From contig NZ_NNRM01000039.1 in NCBI RefSeq assembly GCF_002252525.1, positions 186,001 to 250,000 of the forward strand: 64,000 bases of DNA, read 5' to 3'. Both the position numbers and the translations under genes were made by a program. Of the stretch, positions 9,194 through 35,600 are shown piece after piece. Origin of the DNA: Brucella pseudogrignonensis. Lineage in GTDB: Bacteria; Pseudomonadota; Alphaproteobacteria; Rhizobiales; Rhizobiaceae. Numbering within the stretch: position 1 is the first letter of the stretch; every line of letters starts with the position of its first letter. The notes beneath the pieces are model-generated. The model had not been told where the DNA came from. It worked only from the letters and a program-made list of their open reading frames with translations, and ran no database searches.

Positions 9194-11932
9194 ATGGTTC
9201 ACACAATCATTGCCCAAGGCAAAGTCATTCGGCTGTTCATCGCCGCAATCATAGCGATTATCCCTGCTCTCTTGCCGGTCTCGCAAGGCAGGACGCAAGA
9301 CCTGCCTCCCTATCAAACCCTGGAGGTTCGCAGGCTGTGTGCGCCCACCCAGATCAGCCGGACGCCCGGCCAGAGGGCCAACCAGACAGGTCACATTCTG
9401 CTGAATTCTGGCGGTGAGGTCAGACTGGTCGACATCACATTTGGCCCCGATCGTCGGCCTTATTTCGCGGTCGACTATGCAACAGGCAAAGGCCTAGAGC
9501 GCGCAAAAGGCTTTGTCCCGATCGAAAACGCCTCCAACTTCTGTGGATTTTCACAGCGCGCGGAAAATGGTCAGCCCTTTGTTTCCCCGCCCAACACCTG
9601 CCATCTCATCGCCGCTGTAGCCCCCTCACTCGCCGCTTTGAACAGCCAGGCGCGGGCGCTAGCGGCCTTCCGCCCATCAATGGCGGCGTACCTCCAGTCC
9701 GACGGTCATTATGCGCTGTCGCTGGGCCTGCTGAATATCAAAGCCAGTAGCAGCATTCTCGCGCGCGCAACACGGCTGCCAGAAAACAGTCATTGCTCGA
9801 CCGGCATCGCATTCATCGCTTCGCTGGTAAAGACCGGCAGCGCATTCTCGCAACCTGAAACAGCGGGTTATGCCTCCACAGAAGAGCGGCTTGCCGCCGC
9901 AGGCGCGCTGCTGCAGGCTGCAGCTCAGACGCAAGACAGCAATGGCCTCAGGAAAGCCTGCCATCTGGGACTGGGCTCGGCTTGCAGTCTTTACGCGCAG
10001 GCGATCTATGACGCGGCGGATCCCGACGGGGACCTGCCTGCAACCGTGACCCATTATGCCTTGCTTGGCTGCATGAGCGGCGATGTTCTGGGCTGCAAGC
10101 TGGCGATCAATCGTTCCGAGAACACGCTGAAAAATGCCCAGTTTAGCGCAATCGAAGGTGGCACCGGCGATGCCAACGATCTTGTCACCCCGGAACTCGC
10201 CAAGCCAGGCTGTGATGCAGGTGACGCTGTGAGTTGCGTTTTACTGGCACGTGGAACCGCAAGCACCACCACCGCAACAGCTGTCGAGGCAAGCTCCAAT
10301 TTTGCCGCCCTCTATACAGCCTGCGGTGCCGGCATTGCCTTTGTCTGTCGTGATCTTCCCGACAGTTTTGATCCGGTCATAAGCGCGCGTGGCCAGGCAG
10401 TATCCGCAACACCGGACGAAAATTATGCGCTGGCTGCCTTTCTCGAGGAAAGCTGCGAACCGGGCCCCTCACGAGCCAACCATATCCATTGCAAACCTGC
10501 CTATTACAAATATCGTGACTTTCTGCAGGACACGGAGCCAGATCGCCTCGAAAAGCCCCGTCTGACAAAGACCAAAGCCCTGCTCGAGCGCGGCTGCGCT
10601 GACGGCGATCCATCGGCCTGTATCGCACAAACACGGCTTGCGGCGCACTGGGCCTTGGATGCCCGCAATCACAGCGCAGCCCGCGCGATCGCTCTTTGCG
10701 CAGAGCAGACTGAGAAGGATAGTGCCTGCACCGGGCTGGGGTCGGCGCTCGATCCCGGCCTTGCTGCGGCAGCGCCGGCACAAAATGACAGCTATCAGGC
10801 TCTTTCCAACAGCTGTCGCACCGATACATCCGCCAGCGGACCGCAGGCCTGCGCGGCAGCCGTCGCTGCCGCTCTCGCTTCCAAAGACATCAAGCGACCA
10901 CAACTTGAAGCCATGCTCGACAGTGCCTGCGGCGATGAAACAATCAATGGATGTCAGGCATTGGCCTCATTGCTGTTCGCCAATACCAAGGAGCAATCGC
11001 CGCCCCCGATCAAAGCCGACAACGATGCCAGGGCGTTGGCGGCCCTTGAAAAAGGCTGTCGTTTCGACAATGCGCCAGCAAGCACCTGTCTGTCGCTGGC
11101 GCGACTGCATGGCGACGCCGGTGAAATTGCTGCAGCGATGAACCTGTTTGAAAAAGGCTGCGCCGCTCAGATCGCGCAGAGCAGCAATAGGCCGGAAACC
11201 GTCAGCCTCTGCTACGAGGCCGCAAAATTCGCGTTGCAACACAAGACGCATTATCCGGCAGCGCTGCAATGGGCGGACTTTGCCTGCAAGGCCGCCGATC
11301 CCGGGCTTTCGCCTTATGCCTGTAAACTGATCGGCAATATTTACGCTCTCGGCCTCGGCACCGCTGTCAACGCCCAGCAAGCAGCAATGGCCTACCAGAG
11401 CGGCTGTTTCCATCCTTTCGTCGCCACCACCGATGGCGAAGCCTGCATAAGATATGGCAATCTTCTGCTTGGAGCAAAGCCCCCGATCGTGCTGGCCGGT
11501 GACGCCTATGCTGGCGATCAAACCGCGGCCAGCTTGATTACCGAAGCCTCACGCGCATACGACATGGGCTGCATGGACAATATAGAGCAGGCCTGTCAGC
11601 TTAACCGGACATTGCTCGAAGACTGGAGCAGGGGCCGCTATCCCCATGACCGCACCACCTGCAGCGTTAAGGATGATGCCGGAACAACCCGATCTGAAAA
11701 AACCTGCCGCAGGTTTTCCTTCTATCAGGCGGCAGCCGAACGCAAACCAGGACGTCGTCAGCTTCGTCTCAACGTCCATGTCTGGCCTGATGGCGATAAA
11801 ACCGTGATCTATCAGGACAATGGCCGTTGGCGTCTCAATGAAGTGATCACCGATGGTCCCCAGCGCAAATCCGACATGACGTGCTGGCGCAACCCGATCT
11901 CAAAACGCAGTTTTTGCGCAAAGCCCTTATGA
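9194..11932 (+). CDS. Exported cysteine-rich Sel1/Hcp-like repeat protein
   Basis: 912-residue protein with an N-terminal hydrophobic signal (VIRLFIAAIIAIIPALLPV) and a strong GGGGGGAA ribosome-binding site. The body has about ten helical-hairpin units, each with two cysteines spaced roughly 7-12 apart. Examples are CHLGLGSAC, CMSGDVLGC, CDAGDAVSC, CGAGIAFVC, CADGDPSAC, CGDETINGC and CMDNIEQAC. This is the pattern of Sel1-like and Helicobacter cysteine-rich (Hcp) repeats, where each hairpin is held by a disulfide. The last 60 or so residues form a different, beta-rich cysteine-containing end (QLRLNVHVWPDG, MTCWRNPISKRSFC). It is probably a periplasmic or secreted scaffold; the exact role is unknown. 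Confidence 0.75.
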   Translation: MVHTIIAQGKVIRLFIAAIIAIIPALLPVSQGRTQDLPPYQTLEVRRLCAPTQISRTPGQRANQTGHILLNSGGEVRLVDITFGPDRRPYFAVDYATGKGLERAKGFVPIENASNFCGFSQRAENGQPFVSPPNTCHLIAAVAPSLAALNSQARALAAFRPSMAAYLQSDGHYALSLGLLNIKASSSILARATRLPENSHCSTGIAFIASLVKTGSAFSQPETAGYASTEERLAAAGALLQAAAQTQDSNGLRKACHLGLGSACSLYAQAIYDAADPDGDLPATVTHYALLGCMSGDVLGCKLAINRSENTLKNAQFSAIEGGTGDANDLVTPELAKPGCDAGDAVSCVLLARGTASTTTATAVEASSNFAALYTACGAGIAFVCRDLPDSFDPVISARGQAVSATPDENYALAAFLEESCEPGPSRANHIHCKPAYYKYRDFLQDTEPDRLEKPRLTKTKALLERGCADGDPSACIAQTRLAAHWALDARNHSAARAIALCAEQTEKDSACTGLGSALDPGLAAAAPAQNDSYQALSNSCRTDTSASGPQACAAAVAAALASKDIKRPQLEAMLDSACGDETINGCQALASLLFANTKEQSPPPIKADNDARALAALEKGCRFDNAPASTCLSLARLHGDAGEIAAAMNLFEKGCAAQIAQSSNRPETVSLCYEAAKFALQHKTHYPAALQWADFACKAADPGLSPYACKLIGNIYALGLGTAVNAQQAAMAYQSGCFHPFVATTDGEACIRYGNLLLGAKPPIVLAGDAYAGDQTAASLITEASRAYDMGCMDNIEQACQLNRTLLEDWSRGRYPHDRTTCSVKDDAGTTRSEKTCRRFSFYQAAAERKPGRRQLRLNVHVWPDGDKTVIYQDNGRWRLNEVITDGPQRKSDMTCWRNPISKRSFCAKPL

Positions 11933-11959
11933 CGCGCGTGCCTCGCTATCAGCTGCCCC

Positions 11960-12029
11960 TGTCAGGCGGCCCCTGTCAGCCTGTCCATGTCAGGCTGCCC
12001 ATGTCAGGAGAATGTCAGGCGAATGTCAG
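11960..12029 (+). repeat. Six-copy TGTCAG direct-repeat array
   Basis: TGTCAG(G) occurs at 11960, 11974, 11988, 12002, 12013 and 12024, all in the same orientation. The first three intervals are exactly 14 bases and the last two exactly 11. The array fills the gap between the stop of the repeat-protein gene (11932) and the LexA box (12063) of the radical SAM/UdgX operon. It could be a slipped tandem repeat or an array of protein-binding sites; no known motif was recognised. Confidence 0.8.
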
Positions 12030-12062
12030 CAGAAACCAACCCGGTCGAAGAAGGTGATTGAC

Positions 12063-12077
12063 GAACAAAACGAGAAC
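12063..12077 (+). promoter_or_regulatory. LexA (SOS) box of the radical SAM/UdgX operon
   Basis: GAAC AAAACGA GAAC is a perfect match to the alphaproteobacterial LexA operator GAAC-N7-GAAC. It ends 15 bases before the ATG at 12093, where a bound repressor would block transcription. The same form of site occurs upstream of imuA in this window (26708). Confidence 0.85.
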
Positions 12078-12092
12078 TTCTAATCTTGGTTC

Positions 12093-13325
12093 ATGGCTTC
12101 CATGACCCTGCAAAGAAAACTTGAAATCCTGTCGGATGCGGCAAAATACGACGCATCCTGTGCTTCCAGTGGTGGCGAAAAGCGCAATGCCCTGAAAGGG
12201 GGCCTGGGATCCTCCGGGGGCTCGGGGATTTGTCATGCCTATGCGCCCGATGGGCGCTGCATTTCTCTTCTCAAAATCCTGATGACCAATTTTTGCATGT
12301 TCGATTGCGCCTATTGCGTCAACCGGGTTTCCAGCAATGTCGAACGCACGCGCTTTTCCGTTGACGAGATTGTCACCCTGACCCTCGAATTTTATCGCAG
12401 GAACTATATTGAAGGCCTGTTTCTGTCGTCGGGGATTATCCGATCACCCGATCAGACAATGGGGGACATGGCGCTGATCGCCCGCAAATTGCGGACCTTG
12501 CACGGTTTCAAGGGTTATATCCATCTCAAGACAATTCCGGATGCGGCCCCTGAGCTCATTCGGGAGGCCGGGCTTTATGCAGACCGACTCTCAATCAATG
12601 TCGAATTGCCACAGGACCAAAGCGTACGGCAACTCGCCCCTGAAAAGCGCCCGGAAACCATCCGCGCCACCATGGCTCAGGTCCGGCTTGAAGGCGAGGC
12701 AGCTTCTGACAAGACCATCACAGGGCGCAAGCCGCCAAAATTTGCGCCTGCCGGGCAAAGCACCCAGATGATTATTGGCGCCGATAGCTCCAATGATGCC
12801 ACTATCCTCAATACCGCCGTCCGGCTCTATACCGGCTACAAGCTGCGCCGGGTCTATTATTCCGCCTTCAGTCCGATCCCCGATGCAACCAAGGCATTGC
12901 CCTTGATCAGGCCACCGCTTGAACGCGAACATCGTCTTTATCAGGCAGACTGGTTAATGCGGTTTTATGGCTATGAGGCCTCGGAAATAACCGCAGGCAC
13001 CCGCGACGGATTTCTCGATCTGGATATCGATCCCAAACTTGCCTGGGCACTGCAGAATCGCGGCCATTTTCCGGTTGATATCAATAAGGGATCACGGGAA
13101 ATGCTGCTGCGTGTTCCCGGTTTTGGCGTCCGAACCGTCGATCGCATCATCAGCGCGCGTCGGCTGCAGCCGTTGCGGATCGGCGATCTCGTGCGCATCG
13201 GTGCACTGACACGCAAGGCCAAACCATTCATCACCGTCACCGACTGGACCCCCGGATTGGTGCTCGACAGTGCGAATTTGCGACAGCGTTTCATGCCCGC
13301 GCCCAAACAGTTGAGTTTGCTCTGA
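12093..13325 (+). CDS. Putative DNA modification/repair radical SAM protein
   Basis: 410-residue radical SAM enzyme of the family annotated as 'putative DNA modification/repair radical SAM protein', usually encoded beside UdgX. Early residues KYDASCASSGG precede the 4Fe-4S motif C68-MFD-C72-AY-C75 and a radical SAM barrel. Near the C-terminus is a helix-hairpin-helix DNA-binding segment (INKGSREMLLRVPGFGVRTVDRIISARR). The reaction is unknown; the association with UdgX suggests action on damaged or modified DNA. Translation may start at 12093 or at the ATG at 12102. It is the first gene of a LexA-boxed operon, with 24 bases before the next gene. Confidence 0.88.
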   Translation: MASMTLQRKLEILSDAAKYDASCASSGGEKRNALKGGLGSSGGSGICHAYAPDGRCISLLKILMTNFCMFDCAYCVNRVSSNVERTRFSVDEIVTLTLEFYRRNYIEGLFLSSGIIRSPDQTMGDMALIARKLRTLHGFKGYIHLKTIPDAAPELIREAGLYADRLSINVELPQDQSVRQLAPEKRPETIRATMAQVRLEGEAASDKTITGRKPPKFAPAGQSTQMIIGADSSNDATILNTAVRLYTGYKLRRVYYSAFSPIPDATKALPLIRPPLEREHRLYQADWLMRFYGYEASEITAGTRDGFLDLDIDPKLAWALQNRGHFPVDINKGSREMLLRVPGFGVRTVDRIISARRLQPLRIGDLVRIGALTRKAKPFITVTDWTPGLVLDSANLRQRFMPAPKQLSLL

Positions 13326-13349
13326 CAGGAAAAGATTGAAAGCGGCTGC

Positions 13350-14795
13350 ATGTCTTTTTGTGCCACTATTGACGAGATCGGAACGGTCAACAGCTGGCGT
13401 CAGGCGGCGCGGCGCGCCATGTCGCATCGTATCCCGCCGGAGAGCATGAACTGGAATCCCGCTGATGGCCTGTTTGATGGCGATGGTTTGCCGCAAAGTG
13501 AGGGACCGCATGCGACCCTTGCCTCCAAGGCCTTCCTTGAAACCATGCGCAGCGTGATATGGCATGCCGACGCCGAACGATTTCATCTGCTCTATCAAGC
13601 CTTGTGGCGTCTGGTGCAACGCGACGGCGATCCGCTGTCTCCGGTAGATCCCCTCGGTTACCGTCTGATCCGGATGAGCAAGAATGTAAGGCGGGATCTA
13701 CACAAGATGCATGCATTCCTGCGCTTCCGCGAAATCAGCGCAACAACGCAACGCCGGCGTTTCATCGCCTGGTTCGAACCCGACCACAATATCGTCGAAC
13801 CAGCCTCAACATTTTTCGTGGCACGCTTCTCCGACATGGACTGGACGATCCTGACCCCAAAACGCAGCGCTGTGTTTGAAAATGGCGTGCTGGAATTTCG
13901 GGCCGGTGCCGCAAGACCCAATCTGGCGCCGGATGACAGCGAGGCGCTTTGGAACGCCTATTTCAGCAATATTTTCAATCCAGCCCGAACCAATATACGC
14001 GCCATGCTATCGGAAATGCCGAAAAAATACTGGCGTAACATGCCCGAAACGAGCCTGATCCCAGCCATGCTGAAGGACGCGGAGGCGCGCACCACCAAAA
14101 TGCGCGAGGCGCAGGCCACCCCTCCACGAAAAGGCTCCGAGCTGATCACGCAACGCTATCGCGACCAGTTCCCGGCCGTTGCAGCCACCGCAGACACAAT
14201 CGACGACCTGAGCCGCGCGATCCGCACTTGTCAGCGCTGCAGCCTTTGCGAACAGGCCAGCCAGGCTGTCTGTGGATCTGGAAGCCAGAACGCCGCAATA
14301 ATGATTGTTGGCGAGCAACCCGGAGACCATGAGGATTTAAGCGGCCTGCCTTTCGTTGGACCAGCTGGCCAGATCCTGCGTCGGCTGATGCAGCGAGCCG
14401 ATATAGCTGACAATAGCGTGTTCCTGACCAATGCGGTCAAGCATTTCAAATTCACACCGCGCGGTAAAAGACGCCTCCACCAAACGCCAAATCGCGATGA
14501 GATCAATCATTGCCGATGGTGGCTTACCCAGGAAATAGCGCTGGTAAAACCCAGGCTTATTGTGGCACTCGGTGCATCGGCGGCTTTTGCTGTAAGCGGC
14601 ACCGCGCGCCCGATCTCCCAGCGGCGCGGAACCGTGGAACAGTTGCAGGATGAAACCCGTATCCTTTTCTCATGGCATCCCTCCTATATTCTGCGGTTGC
14701 CTGATCCGGTACACCAGCAGCGCGCGGAAGGCCAATTGCTCGACGACCTGGGTCAGGCCAGAGACCTTATCGCAGCATTGGGCAGCGCTGGCTGA
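13350..14795 (+). CDS. udgX: DUF4130-UdgX fusion, uracil-DNA-binding repair protein
   Basis: 481-residue protein with two parts. Residues about 10-250 are a DUF4130-type domain (the partner usually found with the radical SAM protein), and about 275-475 are a UdgX-type uracil-DNA glycosylase. In the latter the cysteines CQRCSLC (FeS-type), the motif [20 protein letters not shown] at 321-340, and the UdgX-specific loop KRRLH at 373-377 are visible. His377 is the residue that in UdgX becomes covalently linked to the abasic site after uracil removal. The C-terminal motif SWHPSYILR is also present. Operonic with the radical SAM gene and under the same LexA box. Its last 125 bases overlap an antisense EVE-domain remnant. 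Confidence 0.93.
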
Positions 14796-24507: not shown

Positions 24508-26568
24508 TTAACGCCACATCTTGCGCATTCTCGCTCCAACATCCATTCTGACCGATGCCTTGCTGCGCTCCGCTCTTGCGGCTGAGAGCTTTGGCCAACT
24601 TGTGATCTCGAACAGCGGCAGCAAGTTTTTGGGGATGAAGCGGGTTCTGGACGCATATACGTGCCGGTCCCCCTGCGTGTTCTGCCCATAGGTGAAGAAG
24701 CGTTGTGGTGTGATAAGGCTCAGGCTATCTCGCGCGCGGGTCATCCCCACATAGAGCAGGCGCCGCTCCTCTTCGAGTTCCGCCGTCGTTCCGGCACCGA
24801 GATCCGACGGTATACAACCGTCCACCACATTGAGCATGAAAACCGAACGCCATTCCTGGCCCTTGGATGAATGGATAGTTGAAAGGATGAGATAATCTTC
24901 GTCCAGCAGCGGTACGCCCGCCTGGTCACTGGTGGCATCGGGCGGATCAAGCGTCAATTCGGTCAGGAACCGCTCACGGTTGGGATAACCGCCAGCAATC
25001 TGCTCAAGCTGGAGAAGATCGGCCTTGCGGGTTTCAGCCTCCTCATGAAGACGTTCAAGATGCGGTTCATACCACAGGCGCGCCTGACCGATTTCCCCGG
25101 GCCAGCCGCCTTCTGCTTTGCGCAGAGCTGAAAGCATCGCGATAAAGGCAGGCCAGTCGTCGCCAGTCCTGGGTGGTGGTGGAATTTCGGCGAGAGATAT
25201 CAGGGGTTCAGGGTCTGTGGCAATGGTGTCGAGTATTTTGCCGGCTGTCTGCGGACCAACGCCGGGAAGCATTTGCAAAAGGCGAAAGCCCGCCACACGA
25301 TCACGAGGATTCTGTGCAAAGCGGAGCGCCGCCAGCAAGTCCTTGACATGAGCACTGTCGAGAAATTTCAATCCACCGAATTTGACGAAGGGGATGTTGC
25401 GTCGCGTCAGTTCGATTTCAAGGGCACCACTATGGCTCGATGTCCGAAACAGCACAGCCTGTTGCTTGAGCGTCATACCGATCTCGCGATTGGCCAATAC
25501 CTGCTCCACAATGTAGTGGGCCTGGTCACTTTCGTCCCGGACGGTCACGAGCAGGGGACGCTGCTCCGAGCAACGGTCCGTCCATAGGTTCTTGGTGAAC
25601 CGCTCGCGTGCGAGGTCGATCACTCCATTGGCTGCAGCCAGAATGGGTTGTGTGGAGCGGTAATTGCGATCAAGCGTGATGATGTCTGCCGGCTTTGGCG
25701 CGAATGCTTCCGGAAAATCAAGGATGTTGCGCACCGTTGCCGCGCGAAATGAATAGATCGATTGCGCGTCATCCCCGACCACAGTCAAGCCCTGCCCATC
25801 GGGTTTTAATGACAGAAGAATGGAGGCCTGCAACCGGTTGGTATCCTGATACTCATCGACAAGGACATGGTCAAAACGCCCGCCAATATCCTGCGCGAGT
25901 TCGGGATCAGACACCATCTGCGCCCAATAGAGCAGAAGATCGTCATAATCGAGGACGTTCTGCGCCTGTTTCGCGTCGACATAGGCCGCAAATAGCTGTT
26001 TGAGTTCCTCTTCCCAGCCGATCGCCCAGGGATAGGCCGATTTGAGGATCTCGCCGATGGAACTTTCGGCATTGACCACCCGTGAATAGATGGCAAGGCA
26101 AGTCCCCTTGGTGGGAAAGCGGCTTTCTGTCTTCGACAGGCCCAACTCGTGCCGGATCAGGTTCATCAGATCCGCACTGTCTTCGCGATCATGAATTGTG
26201 AAGTCCACATTCAGGCCGATCTGTTCGGCATAGATCCGCAACATCCGCGCCCCGATGCCGTGAAAGGTCCCGGCCCAGTGGAGCGCATCGCGCATGATGG
26301 CAGCGTTCTCACCCACAACTTGCCGACAGATCCGCTCTACCCGTCGGCCCATTTCGGAGGCCGCCCGGCGCGAAAAAGTCATCAGCAAGATCCGTCTTGG
26401 GTCCGCGCCTTTGACAATGAGATGGGCAACCCGATGCGCCAATGTGTTGGTCTTGCCTGAACCAGCACCGGCAATCACCAATAGCGGACCGCTGACACCA
26501 GCGTCCCCCACGCCATATTCCACTGCTTCCCGTTGCCGGTCGTTGAGCTTTTCCAGGTAAGCCGTCAT
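24508..26568 (-). CDS. UvrD/PcrA-like ATP-dependent DNA helicase
   Basis: 686-residue superfamily 1A helicase. Visible motifs are the N-terminal Q-motif region (LNDRQREAVEYG), Walker A AGAGSGKTNTL, motif Ia, Walker B VLVDEYQDTN, motif III (VVGDDAQSIYSFRAA), motif V (STIHSSKGQEW) and motif VI (LLYVGMTRARDSL). It unwinds DNA 3' to 5' in repair. It is shorter than the main UvrD and lies divergent from imuA. The LexA box between them (26708) is about 140 bp from this start, so SOS control of the helicase is possible but less certain. Confidence 0.92.
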   Translation of the reverse strand: MTAYLEKLNDRQREAVEYGVGDAGVSGPLLVIAGAGSGKTNTLAHRVAHLIVKGADPRRILLMTFSRRAASEMGRRVERICRQVVGENAAIMRDALHWAGTFHGIGARMLRIYAEQIGLNVDFTIHDREDSADLMNLIRHELGLSKTESRFPTKGTCLAIYSRVVNAESSIGEILKSAYPWAIGWEEELKQLFAAYVDAKQAQNVLDYDDLLLYWAQMVSDPELAQDIGGRFDHVLVDEYQDTNRLQASILLSLKPDGQGLTVVGDDAQSIYSFRAATVRNILDFPEAFAPKPADIITLDRNYRSTQPILAAANGVIDLARERFTKNLWTDRCSEQRPLLVTVRDESDQAHYIVEQVLANREIGMTLKQQAVLFRTSSHSGALEIELTRRNIPFVKFGGLKFLDSAHVKDLLAALRFAQNPRDRVAGFRLLQMLPGVGPQTAGKILDTIATDPEPLISLAEIPPPPRTGDDWPAFIAMLSALRKAEGGWPGEIGQARLWYEPHLERLHEEAETRKADLLQLEQIAGGYPNRERFLTELTLDPPDATSDQAGVPLLDEDYLILSTIHSSKGQEWRSVFMLNVVDGCIPSDLGAGTTAELEEERRLLYVGMTRARDSLSLITPQRFFTYGQNTQGDRHVYASRTRFIPKNLLPLFEITSWPKLSAARAERSKASVRMDVGARMRKMWR

Positions 26569-26707: not shown

Positions 26708-26722
26708 GAACAAATAGGGAAC
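26708..26722 (+). promoter_or_regulatory. LexA (SOS) box of imuA-imuB-dnaE2
   Basis: GAAC AAATAGG GAAC, a perfect GAAC-N7-GAAC operator, ends 49 bases before the imuA start. LexA control of this cassette is established in alphaproteobacteria. Confidence 0.9.
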
Positions 26723-26771
26723 TTATCAGCTTTTACTGAAGCTGCAAACCCCTGCAAGGAACTGTATCGCA

Positions 26772-27527
26772 ATGCCCGAACCCGCCGCCAATCCCGTTAT
26801 TGCAGAACTGCGGTCGCGCATCGAGCGGCTGGAGGGCGGACATGCGCGACAACGCCACGTTCTGCCTTTCGGTTTGCCGGCGCTCGACAGCAAACTGCCG
26901 GGTGGCGGTCTGGCCTTAGCTTGCCTGCATGAAGTGGCTGGCGGTGGCAATGGTGCCGTGGATGGTGCTGCTGCCGCCTTGTTTGCAGCAGGGATTGCCG
27001 CACGCACGCAGGGCAAGATCCTCTGGGTGGTCACGCGCCGCGATCTATTCATGCCGGCCATCGCTCAGGCTGGCCTTCATCCCGACCGAATGCTGCATCT
27101 GGAGGCGGGGGATGAAAAGTCCCTTCTTGCCTGTTTTGAGGAGGGCTTGCGTCACGGCGGTCTGGGCGCTGTGATTGCCGAAACGGCCCGCCTGTCGATG
27201 ACAGCATCGCGACGGTTGCAACTTGCCGCCGAAAATGGGGGAACTATCGGCATTGCCTTGCGGCGCTGGCGTCGACAGAGCGAAGCCGGTGATTTTGGTC
27301 AGCCCACGGCCAGCGTCACGCGATGGCGCGTGTCTCAAATGCCATCCGCACCCCTTCCCGTTCCAGGACTCGGCCGGGCACGCTGGCTTGTCGAACTCAT
27401 CCGTTGCCGCGCTGGTGACAGCGCAGATTTTGAAGTGGAGGCCTGTGATGACCAGGGTCGTATCGCTCTTCCTTCCAAGGTGGTCTACCGATCGCCTCAG
27501 AAGGAAATCGGACGTCGGATCGCTTGA
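26772..27527 (+). CDS. imuA: ImuA, RecA-like mutagenesis accessory protein
   Basis: 251-residue ImuA. The N-terminal RIERLEGGHARQRHVLPFGLPALDSKLPGGGLALACLHEVAG is typical of the family, which resembles RecA/SulA in fold. It works with ImuB and DnaE2 in damage-induced mutagenesis, probably by loading or stabilising the mutasome. Its gene overlaps imuB by 80 bases, so the two are translationally coupled. Confidence 0.92.
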   Translation: MPEPAANPVIAELRSRIERLEGGHARQRHVLPFGLPALDSKLPGGGLALACLHEVAGGGNGAVDGAAAALFAAGIAARTQGKILWVVTRRDLFMPAIAQAGLHPDRMLHLEAGDEKSLLACFEEGLRHGGLGAVIAETARLSMTASRRLQLAAENGGTIGIALRRWRRQSEAGDFGQPTASVTRWRVSQMPSAPLPVPGLGRARWLVELIRCRAGDSADFEVEACDDQGRIALPSKVVYRSPQKEIGRRIA

Positions 27528-28971
27528 TGACACCGCCCCGCTGGTGCTTGTCGGACACGATAGCCGGCGGCGTGTCATCATGGCACTCGACGACAATGCA
27601 GAGGCGCTCGGCCTGCGCCTTGGCATGCCCGTCGCCAAGGCGCAGGCACTGGCGCCTGACCTTCGCCTGATGGATGCCAATCCCGCCGCCGACGCGGCGG
27701 GACTGCAGAAACTCGCTCATTGGGCCTTGCAGCGCATCTCTCCGATCGTCATGGCTGATCCACCCGACGGGCTTGTCATTGACACGACCGGTGCAGACCA
27801 TCTTCACGGTGGTGAAGCCGCGATGCTCGGCGCAATCCTGCAGCGCTTCGCCTCTTCCGGGGTCAAGGCGCGCATAGCGCTCGCTCAAAGCTGGGGGGCA
27901 GCCCATGCAGCCGCCCGCTTTGGTGAACACAGCATTGAGATCATACCAGACAACAAAACCGCATCTTTTCTGGCGGCGCTGCCGCTTGCAGCGCTGCGTC
28001 TGCAAAAAGACATGATCGTCGAATTGCACCGGTTGGGTTTTGAAACCATCGCCGATGTGATGAACCAGCCCCGCGCACCGCTGACCTTGCGCTTTGGTCC
28101 ACAGATTGCCCGTCGGCTCGATCAGGCTTTCGGGCGATTACCCGAACCCATCACGCCCTACCGCGTCCCCGAAATTATCGAAGCAAGAAAGGTGTTTGGT
28201 GAACCGATCGGTGCGGCAGAAACCATCCGCCGCGCAATCGGCAAACTGGTATCCCAGCTCTGTGCCGAACTTGAAACCAGGGGAATGGGTGCACGGCGGC
28301 TTGATCTGCTGATCCATCGCGTCGACAACGCCCGACAGGCACTCCGGGTTGGCGCAGCGCAGCCTATCCGCGACCCCCAACGCCTGTCACGGCTGCTCAA
28401 TGACAAAATTGCCAGCATCGATCCCGGCTTTGGCATCGAAATCATGGAACTTGCAGCCGTGATTGTCGAACCGTTGCGTGAAAGACAGCCCATGGTCACA
28501 CTCATCGATGCGGCAAACCCCGATATTTCCGACCTGGTTGATGTGCTGGCCAACCGCATTGGCGAAAGCCGACTGTGTCGCTTTACACCCGTCGAGAGCG
28601 ACGTCCCCGAACGCTCGGTGGCAATGATCGCAGCACTGTCACCCGAAACCGGCGCCACTTGGAACGGCAAATGGCCTAGACCAACGCGCCTGTTAGCACG
28701 CCCCGAACCGATCGAAACCATGGCTCTTCTGCCCGACAATCCGCCGGTCTGGTTTACCTGGCGCGGTGTGAGACGACGGGTGCGACAGGCAGACGGCCCG
28801 GAACGCATTCGCGGCGAATGGTGGAAGCGCGATGCCGAAATGGCAACGGTGCGCGATTATTTCCAGGTTGAGGACGATGCCGGTGAACGCTACTGGATTT
28901 TCCGTTCCGGCGACGGCGAGCACAGCGAGAGCGGTAGCCAGCGCTGGTTCCTGCATGGGGTCTTTGGATGA
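27448..28971 (+). CDS. imuB: ImuB, inactive Y-family polymerase-like protein
   Basis: 507-residue DinP-like protein. The start is ATG at 27448 with GGAGG upstream, inside the imuA 3' end; a longer frame back to 27223 lies entirely within imuA and is not needed. The N-terminal strand reads VVSLFLPRW instead of the usual acidic D-x-D of active Y-family polymerases, as in other ImuB proteins. ImuB is thought to be a hub joining the beta clamp and DnaE2. It overlaps dnaE2 by the four bases ATGA. Confidence 0.94.
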
Positions 28972-31900
28972 GAGAAACAGCCTATGCCGAGCTGCAGGTC
29001 ACCAGCCATTTTTCCTTTCTGCGCGGCGCCAGCAGTTGTGAGGAACTGTTTGCCGAAGCCGCGCGATTGGGCATTGCCGCGCTCGCAATCGTCGATCGCA
29101 ATTCGCTGGCAGGTCTTGTGCGGGCGCATCAGGCCGCCCGCGACAGCGGTGTGCGTCTGGTCGTCGGTTGCAGGCTGGACCTTTGCGATGGCATGTCTGT
29201 TCTTGCCTATCCCACCGACCGACAAGCCTACGCCCGGCTATGCCGGTTGCTCTCGTTGGGAAAAATGCGCGCCGGCAAGGCAAAATGTCGGCTCGAATGG
29301 GACGATCTCGCAAGCTATAGCGAGGGATTGCTCGTGGTGCTGTTGCCCGATGAGGCCAACGCAGTCGTAGCCACCCATCTTCGCAAACTCCATGCCGTAT
29401 TCGCTGATCGTGCCTATATGGCATTGACATTGCGGCGCAGACCCAATGACCCGCTGCGCCTGTGGCAGCTTTCCCAAATGGCCGCAGCAGCCAAGATCAG
29501 CACCGTGGTCACCAATGATGTGCTGTTTCATGAGCCGGCACGCCAGGTTCTGCAGGATGTGGTGACCGCTATCCGCCACAATGTAACGATTGACGAACTC
29601 GGACATCGTCGAGAACGTTTCTGCGACCGCTATCTCAAAAAACCGGATGAAATGCATCGGCTGTTTGCCCGCTATCCGGAAGCGCTTTCCAGAACAAACG
29701 AGATCGTTGATCGCTGCAGATTTCAGCTCGATGAATTGACCTACCAATATCCCGAGGAAAAGCTCTTCCCTGAACTCTCGACCCAGCAGGCGCTGGAGAA
29801 ACTGACATGGGCGGGTGCTCTCGAGCACTACCCGGAAGGGCTGCCCGATAAGGTCCGACGCGGGCTTCAGCATGAATTGCAGCTGATCGCCAAGCTCGAC
29901 TACGCCCCCTATTTTCTCACGGTCAACGCAATCGTGCGCTTTGCCCGCTCAAAAGGTATTCTCTGTCAGGGTCGTGGTTCGGCGGCCAATAGTTCGGTCT
30001 GCTACGTTTTGGGCATTACCAGCATTGATCCCGACCGCAATGATTTGTTGTTCGAACGCTTCGTATCGGAAGAACGGCGCGAACCACCCGATATCGATGT
30101 CGATTTCGAGCACGAGCGCCGCGAAGAGGTCATCCAGTGGATCTACCAAACCTATGGGCGGGAGCGGGCAGCCTTGTGCGCAACCGTTGTTCGCTATCGT
30201 GCCAAAGGCGCCTTGCGCGATGTCGGAAAGGCGCTTGGCTTGCCCGAAGATCTCACCAAAACACTCTCGTCACAGGTTTGGGGCTGGTCGGAAAGCATTG
30301 AAGCCAAACATGCCGAAGTGCTCAATCTCAACCTGCAGGATCGTCGTCTGCGTCTGGCGCTCGACCTTGCCCATCAGCTGGTGGGGACACCGCGACATCT
30401 GTCCCAGCATCCCGGTGGCTTTGTCCTGACGCGCGACCGCCTTGACGAACTGGTTCCGATCGAACCTGCCGCAATGGCTGATCGGGCGATCATTGAATGG
30501 GACAAGGACGACATTGATATATTGAAGTTCATGAAGGTCGACATTCTGGCACTCGGCATGCTGTCCTGCATGCGCCGGGCTTTCGATTTTCTGGCACAGC
30601 ATAAAGACACCCAGCTTAATCTTGCCTCCATTCCTTCTGAGGATCCGCGGACCTATGCCATGATCAGACGCGCCGATACGCTGGGCACATTTCAGATTGA
30701 ATCGCGTGCACAGATGGCGATGTTGCCGCGCATGAAACCCCGCACTTTCTATGATCTGGTCATCGAAGTGGCGATCGTCAGGCCAGGACCGATCCAGGGT
30801 GAGATGGTCCATCCCTATCTCAAGCGACGCGAAGGCCGCGAGGAGGTCATCTATCCCAGCCGGCAACTGGAAGCCGTGCTCGGCAAGACATTGGGGGTTC
30901 CGCTGTTTCAGGAACAGGCGATGCGGGTGGCCATCGAATGCGCCGGCTTTTCTGCTGGCGACGCCGATCAATTGCGCCGTGCAATGGCAACCTTCAAACA
31001 TACAGGCGGGGTTTCCAAATTCGGTGAAAAGCTGATCGAAGGCATGGTGGCCAATGGCTATCCACGCGAATTTGCAATGCAAACCTTCAAGCAGCTTGAG
31101 AGCTTCGGCTCCTACGGCTTTCCGGAAAGCCATGCGGCGAGTTTCGCGCTCATCGCCTATGCCAGCAGCTGGATGAAATGCTGGCATCCCGATGTCTTCT
31201 GCGCCGCACTTTTGAACGCCCAACCGATGGGGTTTTACGCCCCGGCGCAGATTGTTCGGGACGCGCAATCCCATAATGTCGAGGTTCGTCCCGTCTGTAT
31301 CAATGCGTCCCGCTGGGATTGTACCTTAGAGGCGCGCAACCCCGATGACGGCCGGCTGGCCGTTCGGTTGGGCCTGCGCATGGTGAAGGGATTGGGTAAT
31401 GCCGATGCCGCGCGGCTGATTTCGGCGCGCGGTGATCGACCCTTTGCTTCGGTTGACGATCTCTGGCATCGCGCGGCAGTTGGTGTGGAAACGCTCAATG
31501 AACTGGCCAAGGCCGATGCTTTCAAACCCTCGCTCGGCCTGCAAAGACGGGAAGTCTTCTGGGCCATGAAGGCGCTCAGGGATGAGCCATTGCCGTTATT
31601 TTCTGCTGTTAGAAACCGGGAGCTGGCAACATCAGGCCAGACATTCCGGCAACAGAACGGGTTCAAAGAACAAATCGAGCCCAAGGTCAAGCTGGCGCCC
31701 ATGACCGCCGGCAGCGAGGTGGTCGCCGATTACGGCCATACCGGTCTCACCTTGCGCCAGCATCCGTTAAGTTTTCTGCGCTCCGAGCTTGCAGATCGTG
31801 GCGTGGTGAGTTGCGCCAGAGCGACCGCCATGGGTGATCGCCACTGGGTCGACATTGCAGGGCTTGTGCTTGTGCGGCAGCGACCGGGATCCGCAAAAGG

Positions 31901-32258
31901 GGTCATGTTCGTGACGATTGAGGATGAAACCGCTGTTGCCAATCTCGTGATATGGACCAAAACATTCGAAAAGTTCCCTCGAATTATATTGGGGGCAAAT
32001 ATGATGGGTGTGCGTGGCCGCGTGCAACGAGAAGGCGAGGTCGTTCATATCGTCGTCCACCACTTGACCGATCTGTCACACGAACTCGCCAGCATCGGCT
32101 CACGTGAGTGTCGGTTTCCCCTCCCCCATGGCAGGGGCGATGAATTTCACCATGGATCCCCGACACCCGATCCGCGCGGCCTGCCCAAGCCACGCGATAT
32201 GCCGGACCCCTACCTGCATCTTGACGAGATCGCAATGAAGACACGAAATTTCCGCTAG
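28968..32258 (+). CDS. dnaE2: Error-prone DNA polymerase III alpha-like DnaE2 (ImuC)
   Basis: 1096-residue C-family polymerase. The PHP domain begins at the N-terminus ([20 protein letters not shown]). The polymerase core includes [19 protein letters not shown] and the catalytic acidic segment [18 protein letters not shown]. It carries a helix-hairpin-helix and ends with an OB fold ([28 protein letters not shown]). It performs translesion synthesis in the ImuA-ImuB-DnaE2 mutasome. Last gene of the LexA-boxed operon. Confidence 0.96.
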
Positions 32259-32654: not shown

Positions 32655-35600
32655 ATGAAATCTTCTGTTTATTGGATGCGTCGCAGCCTTGCGACGCGAA
32701 GCGCGACACTCCTTGCAACCACCGCGCTGACTGCCATTCTCGCAATGAACACATTACCGGCTTCTGCCCAGCTTGCCTGGGACGGCATCAACACCACTTC
32801 GGGTGCGGATGGCGGCGCTGGCACCTGGTCCGCGGGTTCGGCAACCAACTGGGTCGATGCCAATGGCAATAATGTTGCCTGGATCAATGGCAGCCATGCG
32901 GTGTTCGGCGATTTCACGGGTGCTTCCGGCGCAGTACAGGTCGTGGGCAATGTGGCGGCGAGTTCTCTGACCTTCAACCGCACCAGCTTTCCCGGCTATA
33001 ATATTTATGGCGGGACCGTGATGGGCGTGGGGGCAGCCGGTACTGAGCTGTTTAGCGACGGATCGCTCGACGTCTCGGCAAATCTTGCGGGCGGCGACTG
33101 GATAAAGACCGGAACCGGGATTATCCGCTTTCTTTCTGCCAACAGCCATACTGGCACCACCTATATCAACCAGGGTGCCATCGCAATCAGCAATGCCAAC
33201 GCATTGGGAAGCGCTGCGGGGGGCACCGTTGTTGCATCCGGCGCGGCCTTGATCTTCAACGGGAACTTCACCGTCGCCAATGAAGCCCTGACCCTTTCGG
33301 GCACCGGTCTGGGAAGCGGGGCGCTGACAAACAATGTGTCAAAATCGGTCTGGGGCGGTTCGGTCACATTGGCGGCTGACACGATGATTGGTGCTTCCGG
33401 CGCCGACCAGAGCCTGTCGCTGACGGGCGCAGTCGACAGTGGCGGCCATACGCTTACCTTCAATATTGGTTCCAACGCCAACGGACTGATCTCCGGCATC
33501 ATGTCGGGCACAGGCGGGCTGACCAAAGGCAGCGCCGGAACATTGACCCTGAGCGGCGTCAACAGCTTTACCGGCGCCACGACAATTCTTGGTGGCTCGC
33601 TCGTCATGGGCGCACAAGATGCCCTGGCAACATCCTCAACAGTCCAGCTCGCAAACGGCACCTGGGATCTCAAGGGTTTCAATCAGACGGTCAAGGGACT
33701 GTCCAGCAACAACAGTTCGGCCAGTGTAGCGCTCGGTTCAGCCGCTCTCACGGTCAACAATGCCGGTAATTTCACCTACTATGGCGACATTACCGGAACG
33801 GGAAGCCTCACAAAGTCAGGTGCCGGAACTTTGACACTGGGCGGTGTGACAAGTTACACAGGCGCAACCGCGATCAATGGCGGTATTTTGCGAACCGGCG
33901 TTGCAAACGCTCTTACCCAATCGACAGGCATCGCGCTCAACGGCGGCACCTTCGATTTGTCCGGCTACAATCAGACAGTCGGCGCCCTGAATGGCGGCAC
34001 CGGAGCCAGCGTGACTTTGGGATCTGCCATGCTGACCGTTGACACCGCCACAAACAATAGTTTCTGGGGAAGCATTTCCGGTGGGGGCGGTCTGACAAAA
34101 GCCGGTTCCGGCCTATTGGATCTGCGTTCTGCGAACAGCTATTCAGGCGCAACCGCTGTGACTGGCGGCACGCTGAGAGTAGGCCCGGGCGCTTCCCTCG
34201 CCAATTCTTCAGCCATCTCGATCAGCAATGGCGGCACTCTCAGTTTGACGGCAGCCAATGCGCTCTCCTCCAACGCTGCCGTCAGCCTGACAGGTAACGG
34301 ATCCCAGCTTGGACTCGCCGCCGATCAGCAGATCGGTTCCCTTGCCGGCACGGCGGGCACGTCGATCTATGTCGACCCAGGGGTGACACTGACGACCGGA
34401 ACCAGCAATACCAGCTCGATTTTTTCTGGCAATATCGGCAGCAATGGCGAGGGAAATCTCGTCAAGCTCGGCAGCGGCGGCCTGACCTTGTCCGCTACCA
34501 ACAATTATAGCGGCACCACCACTGTTCAGGCTGGCTCGCTGATCGTCAACGGCTCCATTGCCGCTTCCTCCCTGACCACAGTCCAAGCCGGTGCCGCCTT
34601 GGGTGGCGGCGGCCGCGTGGGAGCGACCAGGATCAAAGACGGCGGCACACTTGCCGCCGGCGCACCGGTCGGTACATTGCACATTGATGGAAACCTGACA
34701 CTCGATCAGGGAAGTCAGATCGCCTATGAGGCGGGTGCGCCGGGCGTGGACTATTCGACGCCCGGGACATCCGATAGTCTTTCGGTCACCGGAAATCTCA
34801 CACTGAACGGCGCCAAGCTCAACGTCACCGACGCGGGTGGATTTGGCCCCGGGCTTTATCGCATCTTCGATTACACCGGCACGCTCACAACCACCAATGG
34901 CGGCTTGTCAATCAACCAGGCGCCGGCCGGAGCGCCCCTCACCATTCAAATTCTGACCGCAGACAAGCAGATCAATCTCATCAATGTCGGCAATCAGACG
35001 CTTGGGTTCTGGAATGCCGACGGCACTGCAAGCGCCAGCCAATTGGGCGGTGGAAGCGGAACCTGGTCGGTGGTCTCCCCGGTCTGGACCGATGAAAGCG
35101 GTAGTCTGACCGCTCCGATGCAGCCACAGCCAGGCTTTGCCATATTCGGTGGCAATGCCGGGACCGTGACAATCAACAACAGCGCCGGATCCGTCCAGGC
35201 GACAGGCATGCAGTTCGCCTCCGATGGATACCGGATGACCGGCGATGCCTTGACGCTCATCGCAGATGCAGATCATCCGGCACCTGTGGAAATAAGAGTG
35301 GGCGACGGCAGTGCGTCAAGCGGATCCTATGTCACAAGCATCGACAATGTAATCACCGGCAGCGACGGGCTCAACAAGACCGGCGCCGGAACGCTTGTGC
35401 TAAACGGATCCAATCTCTATTCCGGCGGCACAACATTGTCGGCAGGCAGGCTTTCCGTGTCCTCTGACGCAAATCTCGGCGCAGTCAACGGCGGCCTGAC
35501 CTTTGCGGGAGGCGTCCTCGAACTTGGTTCCTCGTTCGATCTTGCAACCGCGCGCTCCGTGCAACTGACCGCAGCGGGTGGAACAATCGACACCAATGGT

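Follow-up and report, generated by a model that had tools for sequence, protein, structure and literature searches.

A predicted LexA-controlled operon for a radical SAM enzyme and a DUF4130-UdgX fusion protein in Brucella pseudogrignonensis

Two neighbouring genes in a 64-kb stretch of Brucella pseudogrignonensis DNA (the window) raise the question of whether a radical SAM enzyme and a UDG of the UdgX type are made together under SOS control and, if so, which of them that control follows. The features on which the argument rests are these:

12058-12063, + strand: possible -35 hexamer TTGACG, picked out by eye, overlapping the first base of the LexA box
12063-12077, + strand: predicted LexA box GAACAAAACGAGAAC, from sequence, conserved position in relatives and matrix rank
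12079-12084 or 12081-12086, + strand: possible -10 hexamer, TCTAAT or TAATCT respectively, picked out by eye
12093-13325, + strand: radical SAM protein of family TIGR03916, from a profile match, the CX3CX2C motif (C68, C72, C75) and an HhH-like C-terminal region
13350-14054, + strand: DUF4130 (TIGR03915) domain, residues 1 to about 235 of the second protein, from profile and AlphaFold2 model
14055-14795, + strand: UdgX domain (TIGR03914), from profile, motifs and structure matches
26708-26722, + strand: second good candidate LexA box, GAACAAATAGGGAAC, 49 nt before imuA, serving as internal positive control
26772-32258, + strand: imuA-imuB-dnaE2-type operon (26772-27527, about 27448-28971, and 28968-32258)

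The initial annotation had placed a perfect GAAC-N7-GAAC 15 bases before the first start codon, and a motif scan of the window bears this out: 15 nucleotides (12078-12092) separate the box on the + strand from the ATG at 12093, with a second in-frame ATG at 12102. Taken without its context the motif is weak evidence for an operator; the window holds 5 matches against 1.59 expected, and in the organism's own genome there are 200 sites for the motif and 166 for its reversed form. Scored with a matrix derived from 55 lexA and recA boxes of other genomes, the 12063 box comes third of 105 own-genome sites (100 of the 200 genomic sites and the 5 in the window), and this rank, together with the conserved position described below, points to a good site. 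The promoter reading of the neighbouring hexamers is weak, because a consensus scan of 11900-12200 passed no sigma-70-type promoter. What lies ahead of the operon, then, is a predicted LexA operator motif of the alphaproteobacterial type, with a promoter that the scan did not recognise.

The host genome has a lexA match (G000:C23:93192) whose own autoregulatory box, GAACAAGACTGGAAC, is of this type and begins at -72, and GAACAATAATAGAAC begins at -180 of its recA match. Within the window, the imuA-imuB-dnaE2 operon, assigned to the SOS response, carries the same type of box as the radical SAM operon. Its dnaE2-type gene matches the error-prone polymerase model PRK05672 over the cut-off, ImuB is assigned from a Pfam IMS match over the cut-off and Pol IV models under theirs, and the ImuA matches fall under the curated NCBIfam cut-off. 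This second operon carries out translesion synthesis rather than lesion processing, and in that it differs from the radical SAM operon.

The initial annotation had proposed looking for the box upstream of orthologous operons, and there the operator motif is conserved, in its favour. A perfect box occupies the corresponding position in 28 of 30 loci of the host's order (30 of 38 operon loci), with 1 of 390 control windows and 1 of 30 for the reversed motif; in 74 of 77 named loci (80 minus three clearly non-alphaproteobacterial ones; one of the 77, L092, is labelled only Proteobacteria), with 15 of 2390 control windows and 1 of 80 for the reversed motif, both over all 80 loci; and in 26 of 26 further loci from the same class or nearer. 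The three counts are not additive, since the named loci overlap the order genomes (L037 and L103, for example, have the same box and sit on equally long contigs), and the control rate of 0.3-0.6% is a rough background that includes coding DNA. All five loci without a perfect box have it with one mismatch. As yardsticks, 30 each of the lexA and recA genes were taken from the same 38 operon-bearing genomes: lexA has a perfect box in 30/30 and recA in 18/30, or 29/30 within one mismatch. The box is found before none of 20 UDG genes from 20 genomes of the order, these being chosen among the TIGR03914 matches listed below the UdgX cut-off and presumed to be family-4. Over 106 alphaproteobacterial loci a -35-like hexamer starts 17-19 nt upstream of the box in 39 (10 and 11 in displaced controls), and the spacer within the box looks like a -10 hexamer, agreeing with it on average at 3.72 of 6 positions (2.42 when shuffled); unlike many of its relatives, the window's box has no such hexamer inside it (1 of 6 matches). 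In 39 of the 106 the box ends 2 nt ahead of the first in-frame start codon, and a leaderless promoter covered by LexA is predicted for many relatives.

In the rest of the phylum, outside the Alphaproteobacteria, the alphaproteobacterial box is found before none of 32 operons, and 20 of them have a perfect E. coli-type CTGT-N8-ACAG instead, 6 more having it with one mismatch (4 of 380 control windows). The remaining six carry neither LexA box tested, though four of these have another palindrome. Control of the operon would thus have outlasted a switch in LexA specificity, and perhaps even a switch of regulator. LexA control is very likely because the box is conserved in the Alphaproteobacteria and replaced by an E. 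coli-type box in other classes, and we put the probability that the window's operon belongs to the LexA (SOS) regulon at roughly 0.9. Relatives of the operon also occur in 158 plasmid records (the best 80% identical), in 10 phage records and at 2 loci in IMG/VR; transfer into the host genome by plasmid is a possibility.

Of the two proteins, the first (410 aa) scores 564 bits against TIGR03916, rSAM_link_UDG (cut-off 343.5), a family which we take to cover the HhH-containing COG4277. The three cysteines of its cluster motif are invariant in 30 sequences. Its structure model (pLDDT 74; below 50 at residues 16-55, 70-82, 261-274 and 404-410) matches only general radical SAM folds in the PDB, at a best TM of about 0.4 by query length; HydE, AprD4, MiaB, viperin, lipoyl synthase and others make up the best 50 of 1299 matches. 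The likely SOS control, the HhH-like C-terminus and the partner proteins together make it reasonable to suppose that the enzyme acts on damaged DNA.

The second protein (481 aa) had been described simply as UdgX. The UdgX domain is there, but the description is incomplete, for the protein is a DUF4130-UdgX fusion: next to the TIGR03916 gene it matches TIGR03915 at 182.7 bits (cut-off 112.25), followed by TIGR03914 at 288.8 bits (cut-off 189.95), and a script flagged such in-frame fusions in 67 of 71 named loci with a UDG. The AlphaFold2 model of the DUF4130 domain (mean pLDDT 89.8; its alignment took in 73 of 79 loci with a DUF4130 match) has no PDB match with E below 0.001. Among the weak matches, at E 0.007 and worse and TM about 0.27 or less, are several that we would group as DHH/RecJ-type phosphoesterases, a resemblance that may serve as a lead only. 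The UdgX domain has motif A GEQPG (321-325), the loop KRRLH (373-377) and motif B HPSYILR (443-449), and the solved chains nearest to it are UdgX (E 3e-48), 6ajo, 6ail and others being presumably the Mycobacterium smegmatis enzyme. With that enzyme it has in common the GEQPG motif A, a KRRIH-type loop and an HPS...LR motif B; the solved chains have about 205-230 residues, whereas the window's domain is fused behind DUF4130. The UdgX signature given in PMC10359453 is a motif A with Q, an R-loop with the covalent His, and motif B. K373-R-R-L-H377 is the UdgX loop, and the assignment of His377 in the initial annotation is therefore correct; its equivalent is present in 71 of 72 UDG domains of radical SAM-DUF4130 operons. 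Covalent uracil capture by the domain is predicted from family and motifs.

How commonly the bare motif occurs might suggest that the box is a chance match, or some other regulator's conserved site, ahead of a constitutive operon. Given its conservation at the same place far above the control windows, the same motif before every lexA counted, and the E. coli-type box that takes its place in other classes, this is hardly credible. Speaking against LexA control itself are the slight genome-wide enrichment, the promoter scan, the position of the window's -10-like hexamer outside the box, and the six operons of other classes with neither LexA box. It is also very unlikely, if a shade less so, that the radical SAM protein is simply an SplB-like enzyme of a kind already known to be SOS-controlled. 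The relevant passages of PMC3765255 do call the partner SplB-like, and those of PMC8565304 give SplB (COG1533) as SOS-regulated, but the latter treat SplB and COG4277 as separate members. Among NCBIfam profiles the window's protein matches TIGR03916 alone and no SplB family, and no protein described as a spore photoproduct lyase is among the best 50 of 1299 PDB fold matches.

The emphasis placed earlier on UdgX needs amending, though UdgX does sit in the operon and its His loop is well conserved. SOS control could serve UdgX, for uracil capture, with the radical SAM gene a passenger; in two genomes with no radical SAM match (G171 and G194) the box is kept before DUF4130-UdgX, as it is in a third (G136) before a remnant consisting of a DUF4130 tail and UdgX. 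Against this, operons that have no UdgX still keep LexA-type boxes, and most UdgX genes located outside the operon have none. Alphaproteobacterial operons without a UDG have a perfect box in 4 of 5 cases and one mismatch in the fifth, and at the 18 non-alphaproteobacterial loci without a UDG a LexA box, perfect or off by one base, is present in all but two (L249 and L222). Of 15 UdgX genes outside the operon (three, in G069, G105 and G136, with DUF4130 tails, and one with merely 32 bases upstream), a perfect box precedes one by script, or two counting the G136 remnant. Control on behalf of UdgX is thus improbable. Gene counts show DUF4130 to be the partner that stays with the radical SAM gene, UdgX being optional: among 199 genomes 38 have the radical SAM gene over the cut-off, 39 have DUF4130 and 37 have both, while at non-alphaproteobacterial loci DUF4130 is found in 29 of 29 and a UDG match in 11 of 29. 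Caulobacter vibrioides, a control genome, has matches to TIGR03916, TIGR03915 and TIGR03914 alike.

A broader alternative, to which we give somewhat less than even odds, is that the operon belongs to a general DNA-damage set run by whichever damage-responsive regulator a lineage provides, LexA being one and a non-LexA regulator that binds the palindrome GTCTCA-N5-TGAGAC being another in Xanthomonas-type genomes. This palindrome precedes the operon exactly in G280, G567 and Xanthomonas dyei, and with one mismatch in G477, a genome that we assign to the Xanthomonadaceae. These four genomes have 11 exact sites, of which 10 precede uvrA (3), the operon (3) or a helicase (4) that matches Pfam WHD_HRQ1 under the cut-off and that we take to be Hrq1/MrfA-like. 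In the wider family exact sites occur in 41 of 60 genomes, against none in any of the 60 for the reversed control. The lexA genes of the four genomes carry TTAGTAGTAATACTACTAA, and one of the two in X. dyei TGTACAAATGTACA, rather than the palindrome, both being, we assume, LexA motifs of Xanthomonas. The palindrome accordingly suggests a second, LexA-independent repair regulon, but its regulator and its response to damage are putative, and of 30 further loci only 11 precede the helicase, 5 the operon and none uvrA, the others standing before mraZ, dnaB, the CRISPR gene csy1 or genes of unassigned type. The palindrome near uvrA lies between that gene and an opposite-strand gene reading like rplU, and could therefore serve either; ahead of recA it occurs once in the wider family. 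It is conceivable, though we think it rather doubtful, that radical SAM-DUF4130 is a core tied to damage-responsive transcription through any regulator at hand, be it alphaproteobacterial LexA, E. coli-type LexA or a LexA-independent palindrome regulator that also governs uvrA, the helicase and, in one genome or another, recA or rmuC. Such company would point to radical chemistry as a means of repairing bulky or crosslinked lesions, UdgX being optional.

The initial annotation had known of no description of this pairing as SOS-induced, and this is not borne out. PMC8565304, in the passages concerned, already lists a two-gene UDG operon, COG1573-COG4277, within the SOS network of Bacteroidetes, cites earlier such regulation in Verrucomicrobia and Alphaproteobacteria, and gives the alphaproteobacterial LexA motif as GAAC-N7-GAAC / GTTC-N7-GTTC. 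That operon, likewise of two genes with a UDG and LexA control, is very probably the window's gene pair; the SOS link being in print, the window's operon is therefore one more case. The same passages mention neither DUF4130 nor the covalent chemistry of UdgX, and they do not describe COG4277 as a radical SAM family. The NCBIfam set TIGR03916/TIGR03915/TIGR03914, whose curated cut-offs both window proteins exceed, says nothing on regulation in the descriptions returned, and the published accounts of UdgX, as far as searched, mention neither SOS nor radical SAM.

For LexA control of the window's operon, known LexA biology would have the repressor, bound at its box, block RNA polymerase at a promoter immediately before the start codon of the radical SAM gene. 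Upon DNA damage, RecA-stimulated self-cleavage would release LexA, and both proteins of the operon would be made alongside RecA and the ImuA-ImuB-DnaE2 polymerase. The radical SAM-DUF4130 core may then bind damaged DNA through the HhH-like domain, with a 5'-deoxyadenosyl radical reversing or preparing the lesion, while the fused UdgX would excise uracil and then, by a covalent bond from His377, cap the abasic site, so that DNA which is single-stranded or stalled does not break in the course of the SOS response. This division of labour between the enzymes is tentative at best; the parts of the scheme with support in the sequences are the box and its retention in relatives, the switch to another box type beyond the Alphaproteobacteria, the linkage of radical SAM and DUF4130, and the conserved His377.

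What the comparison adds is that control appears to follow the radical SAM-DUF4130 pair, with UdgX an accessory. The function of TIGR03916 and DUF4130 could thereby be tested in an amenable SOS model, for instance Caulobacter, and UdgX would gain a physiological setting absent from the UdgX papers as far as searched. Were the palindrome to mark a second damage regulon, that would be the greater surprise.

The stretch 12063-14795, an operon that the initial annotation placed under LexA control, begins with a perfect box, followed after 15 bases by the first start codon and by two reading frames with a gap of 24 bases between them. The coordinates it gave were correct, as was its His377, though it missed the DUF4130 part of the second protein.

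Features of the window
12063-12077, + strand: LexA box, perfect GAAC-N7-GAAC, GAACAAAACGAGAAC, read from the sequence
12093-13325, + strand: radical SAM ORF, NCBIfam TIGR03916 (564 bits, cut-off 343.5)
13350-14795, + strand: fusion ORF, DUF4130 (TIGR03915) and UdgX family (TIGR03914), both profiles over cut-off
24508-26568, - strand: UvrD/PcrA-like helicase gene, divergent from the imuA-imuB-dnaE2-type operon; matches below curated cut-offs
26708-26722, + strand: good LexA box before the imuA-imuB-dnaE2-type operon, GAACAAATAGGGAAC, matrix rank 7
26708-32258, + strand: imuA-imuB-dnaE2-type operon, including its box
32655-38219, + strand: repetitive, autotransporter-like ORF of 1854 aa, translation read by eye

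The bare GAAC-N7-GAAC motif is no rarity, with five occurrences in the window against 1.59 expected and 200 sites in the genome, where the reversed motif has 166. A position matrix was built on 55 boxes preceding lexA and recA of other genomes; when it was applied to 105 sites of the genome (100 listed of the 200, plus the window's five), the operon box ranked third and the site at 26708-26722 seventh, the remaining three window sites ranking 58, 88 and 100. The genome's own lexA and recA are preceded by boxes of the same type as the operon. The top-scoring LexA-like site among those scored is GAACAAAACAAGAAC, at G000:C23:46313-46327 in this same genome.

The radical SAM profile TIGR03916 exceeded its cut-off in 38 of 199 genomes of the bacterial order. 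Thirty loci were fetched, the window's own included, and a box was counted if it lay in the stretch from 250 bases ahead of the match start to 15 bases past it: it was perfect in 28 and had one mismatch in 2. Among the controls, one window out of 390 scored, as did one reversed-motif test out of 30. Among 80 named loci three are clearly outside Alphaproteobacteria (Xanthomonas, Acidovorax and Comamonas); of the other 77, one is labelled Proteobacteria only, and 76 carry names that we take to be alphaproteobacterial. These 77 have a perfect box in 74 cases and one mismatch in 3 (control windows of all 80 loci, 15/2390), and all 26 further loci that a phylum search turned up in the same class or among nearer relatives have a perfect box. 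The box before orthologous operons, which the initial annotation proposed to look for, is thus conserved in relatives. As the sets share some loci and consist of related sequences, 28/30, 74/77 and 26/26 are not independent trials; the contrast with the background is large despite this kinship and overlap. Two yardstick genes were read in 30 of the 38 genomes that have the operon: lexA has a perfect box in all 30 and recA in 18 (29 within one mismatch). As a negative yardstick, UDG genes that fell short of the UdgX cut-off, from 20 genomes of the order, gave no box within 600 bases (0/20).

Outside Alphaproteobacteria we compared 32 operons, 29 from the phylum search and the three named loci. 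None has the alphaproteobacterial box; the E. coli-type box, CTGT-N8-ACAG, is perfect in 20 and has one mismatch in 6, against 4 of 380 control windows, and neither box was found in the other six loci (L101, L222, L249, L250, L251 and L252). Control of the operon thus appears to outlast a change of LexA specificity, for which chance conservation of DNA does not account.

As to which gene the control follows, in the 199 genomes radical SAM was over its cut-off in 38, DUF4130 in 39 and UdgX in 52, and comparison of the first two lists gives 37 genomes in common. The 29 non-alphaproteobacterial loci have DUF4130 in 29 and UDG in 11; UDG similarity is present in 71 of the 80 named loci, two of the nine without it (L106 and L122) sitting at contig ends. 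Five alphaproteobacterial loci lacking UDG, away from contig ends, have a perfect box in four cases and one mismatch in L066, and the UDG-less operons of Comamonas and Acidovorax have E. coli-type boxes, perfect and with a mismatch, respectively. UdgX outside the operon is usually without a box: a perfect one lies within 600 bases of 1 of 15 such genes (one of which had 32 bases of upstream DNA only), and in a second, in genome G136, the box precedes what is left of DUF4130, within the region that was taken as the UdgX gene. This same-family genome (L186, G136:C1:5486700-5489500, - strand, about 842-973) has a decayed operon, the radical SAM gene gone and a LexA-type box directly 5' of a DUF4130 tail and UdgX gene; similar tails in G069 and G105 have no box. 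Three genomes speak against a strict reading: in G171 and G194, where the radical SAM match is missing, the box still precedes DUF4130-UdgX, and G186 has the box and radical SAM but no DUF4130 nearby. These counts and exceptions assign the box to the operon's promoter, which as a rule serves radical SAM together with DUF4130.

The box lies in forward orientation in 106 alphaproteobacterial loci. In 39 of these a hexamer matching the -35 element at 4 or more of 6 positions begins 17-19 bases upstream of it, compared with 10 and 11 at displaced positions, and the box spacer agrees with the -10 hexamer at a mean of 3.72 of 6 (shuffled spacers, 2.42). In 39 of the 106, two bases separate the end of the box from the first in-frame start codon; in that group LexA would cover the -10 element, and transcription would begin at the ATG or close to it. 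The window is unlike that group: by eye, TTGACG reaches into the first base of the box, a -10-like TCTAAT or TAATCT is positioned after the box, and a consensus scan gave no promoter there.

Of the six loci that have neither LexA box, four (L250-L252 and Xanthomonas dyei L101) hold the palindrome GTCTCA-N5-TGAGAC, which has one mismatch in L250 and starts 33-51 bases ahead of the match. In the same four genomes lexA is preceded by TTAGTAGTAATACTACTAA, and one of the two X. dyei lexA genes by TGTACAAATGTACA, as expected of LexA in Xanthomonas-type genomes. The exact palindrome occurs 3, 3, 3 and 2 times per genome (reversed control, 0); among these 11 sites, 10 stand before uvrA (3), an Hrq1/MrfA-like DEAD helicase (4) or the operon (3), and the last before a small unassigned gene, all 11 assignments having been checked by tblastn. 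The uvrA site is flanked by uvrA and, on the other strand, an rplU-like gene, so that it could serve either. Across the family the exact palindrome is found in 41 of 60 genomes (reversed control 0 in all 60), and 30 loci, one per genome, gave the helicase 11 times, the operon 5 times, the small gene once and uvrA never. Pfam, run on six of the other 13, returned RecA, MraZ, DnaB, RmuC, Csy1 and none; a further locus, L311, is MraZ-like by eye, and the rest of the 13 are without an assignment. Over the loci handled (L250-L252, L101, L277-L287 and L294-L323), the palindrome looks like the mark of a putative repair-rich regulon with a regulator other than LexA, possibly a LexA-independent damage regulon; a search of literature titles found none on it.

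COG4277 is very probably the TIGR03916 family. PMC8565304 describes a two-gene COG1573-COG4277 operon with UDG in the SOS network of Bacteroidetes, and refers to a UDG-based repair system under SOS regulation reported earlier in Verrucomicrobia and Alphaproteobacteria, so the claim that SOS control was new does not hold. PMC3765255, on SOS components, names SplB-like radical SAM genes and UDG genes as associates of DUF4130. In the two UdgX papers searched, the terms 'SOS' and 'radical SAM' were both absent. In the wider literature searched, 'DUF4130' and 'COG4277' were each named in one paper and 'TIGR03916' in none, and as far as that literature goes the function of the operon is little studied.

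The radical SAM gene is present in 158 plasmid records, and the closest copy, 80% identical, is on a plasmid of Ketogulonicigenium robustum. No fewer than 100 of these records are in Phaeobacter, Paracoccus, Leisingera, Sulfitobacter, Ketogulonicigenium and Thioclava, genera that we take to be Rhodobacteraceae. Relatives also occur in 10 phage records (46-55% identical), including two of 240 kb labelled Acinetobacter phage, and in two IMG/VR contigs (L123 and L124; 60-62%).

The UdgX part of the second protein has the motifs GEQPG, KRRLH and HPSYILR, with His377 in the KRRLH loop as annotated, and its closest solved structures are UdgX chains (E 3e-48). His377 is conserved in 71 of 72 UDG domains, the window's own and 71 from named loci. 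The sole exception, Acetobacter nitrogenifigens L045, lacks the histidine and a recognisable GEQPG motif; its radical SAM protein is nonetheless among those closest to the window's (76%). In the radical SAM protein C68, C72 and C75 are invariant, and the structure model matched general radical SAM folds only; weak profile matches of its C-terminus to HhH proteins (ComEA-related, E 0.0064; RuvA, 0.027) make DNA binding plausible. DUF4130 gave a confident structure model, yet no significant match among solved folds; DHH/RecJ-type phosphoesterases recur weakly (E 0.007 and worse). LexA is a repressor whose release depends on RecA, and by that established biology LexA would repress the operon and RecA-dependent release would induce it. 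Our best guess is that the radical SAM and DUF4130 pair would use radical chemistry to process a lesion and that UdgX would capture uracil or abasic sites.
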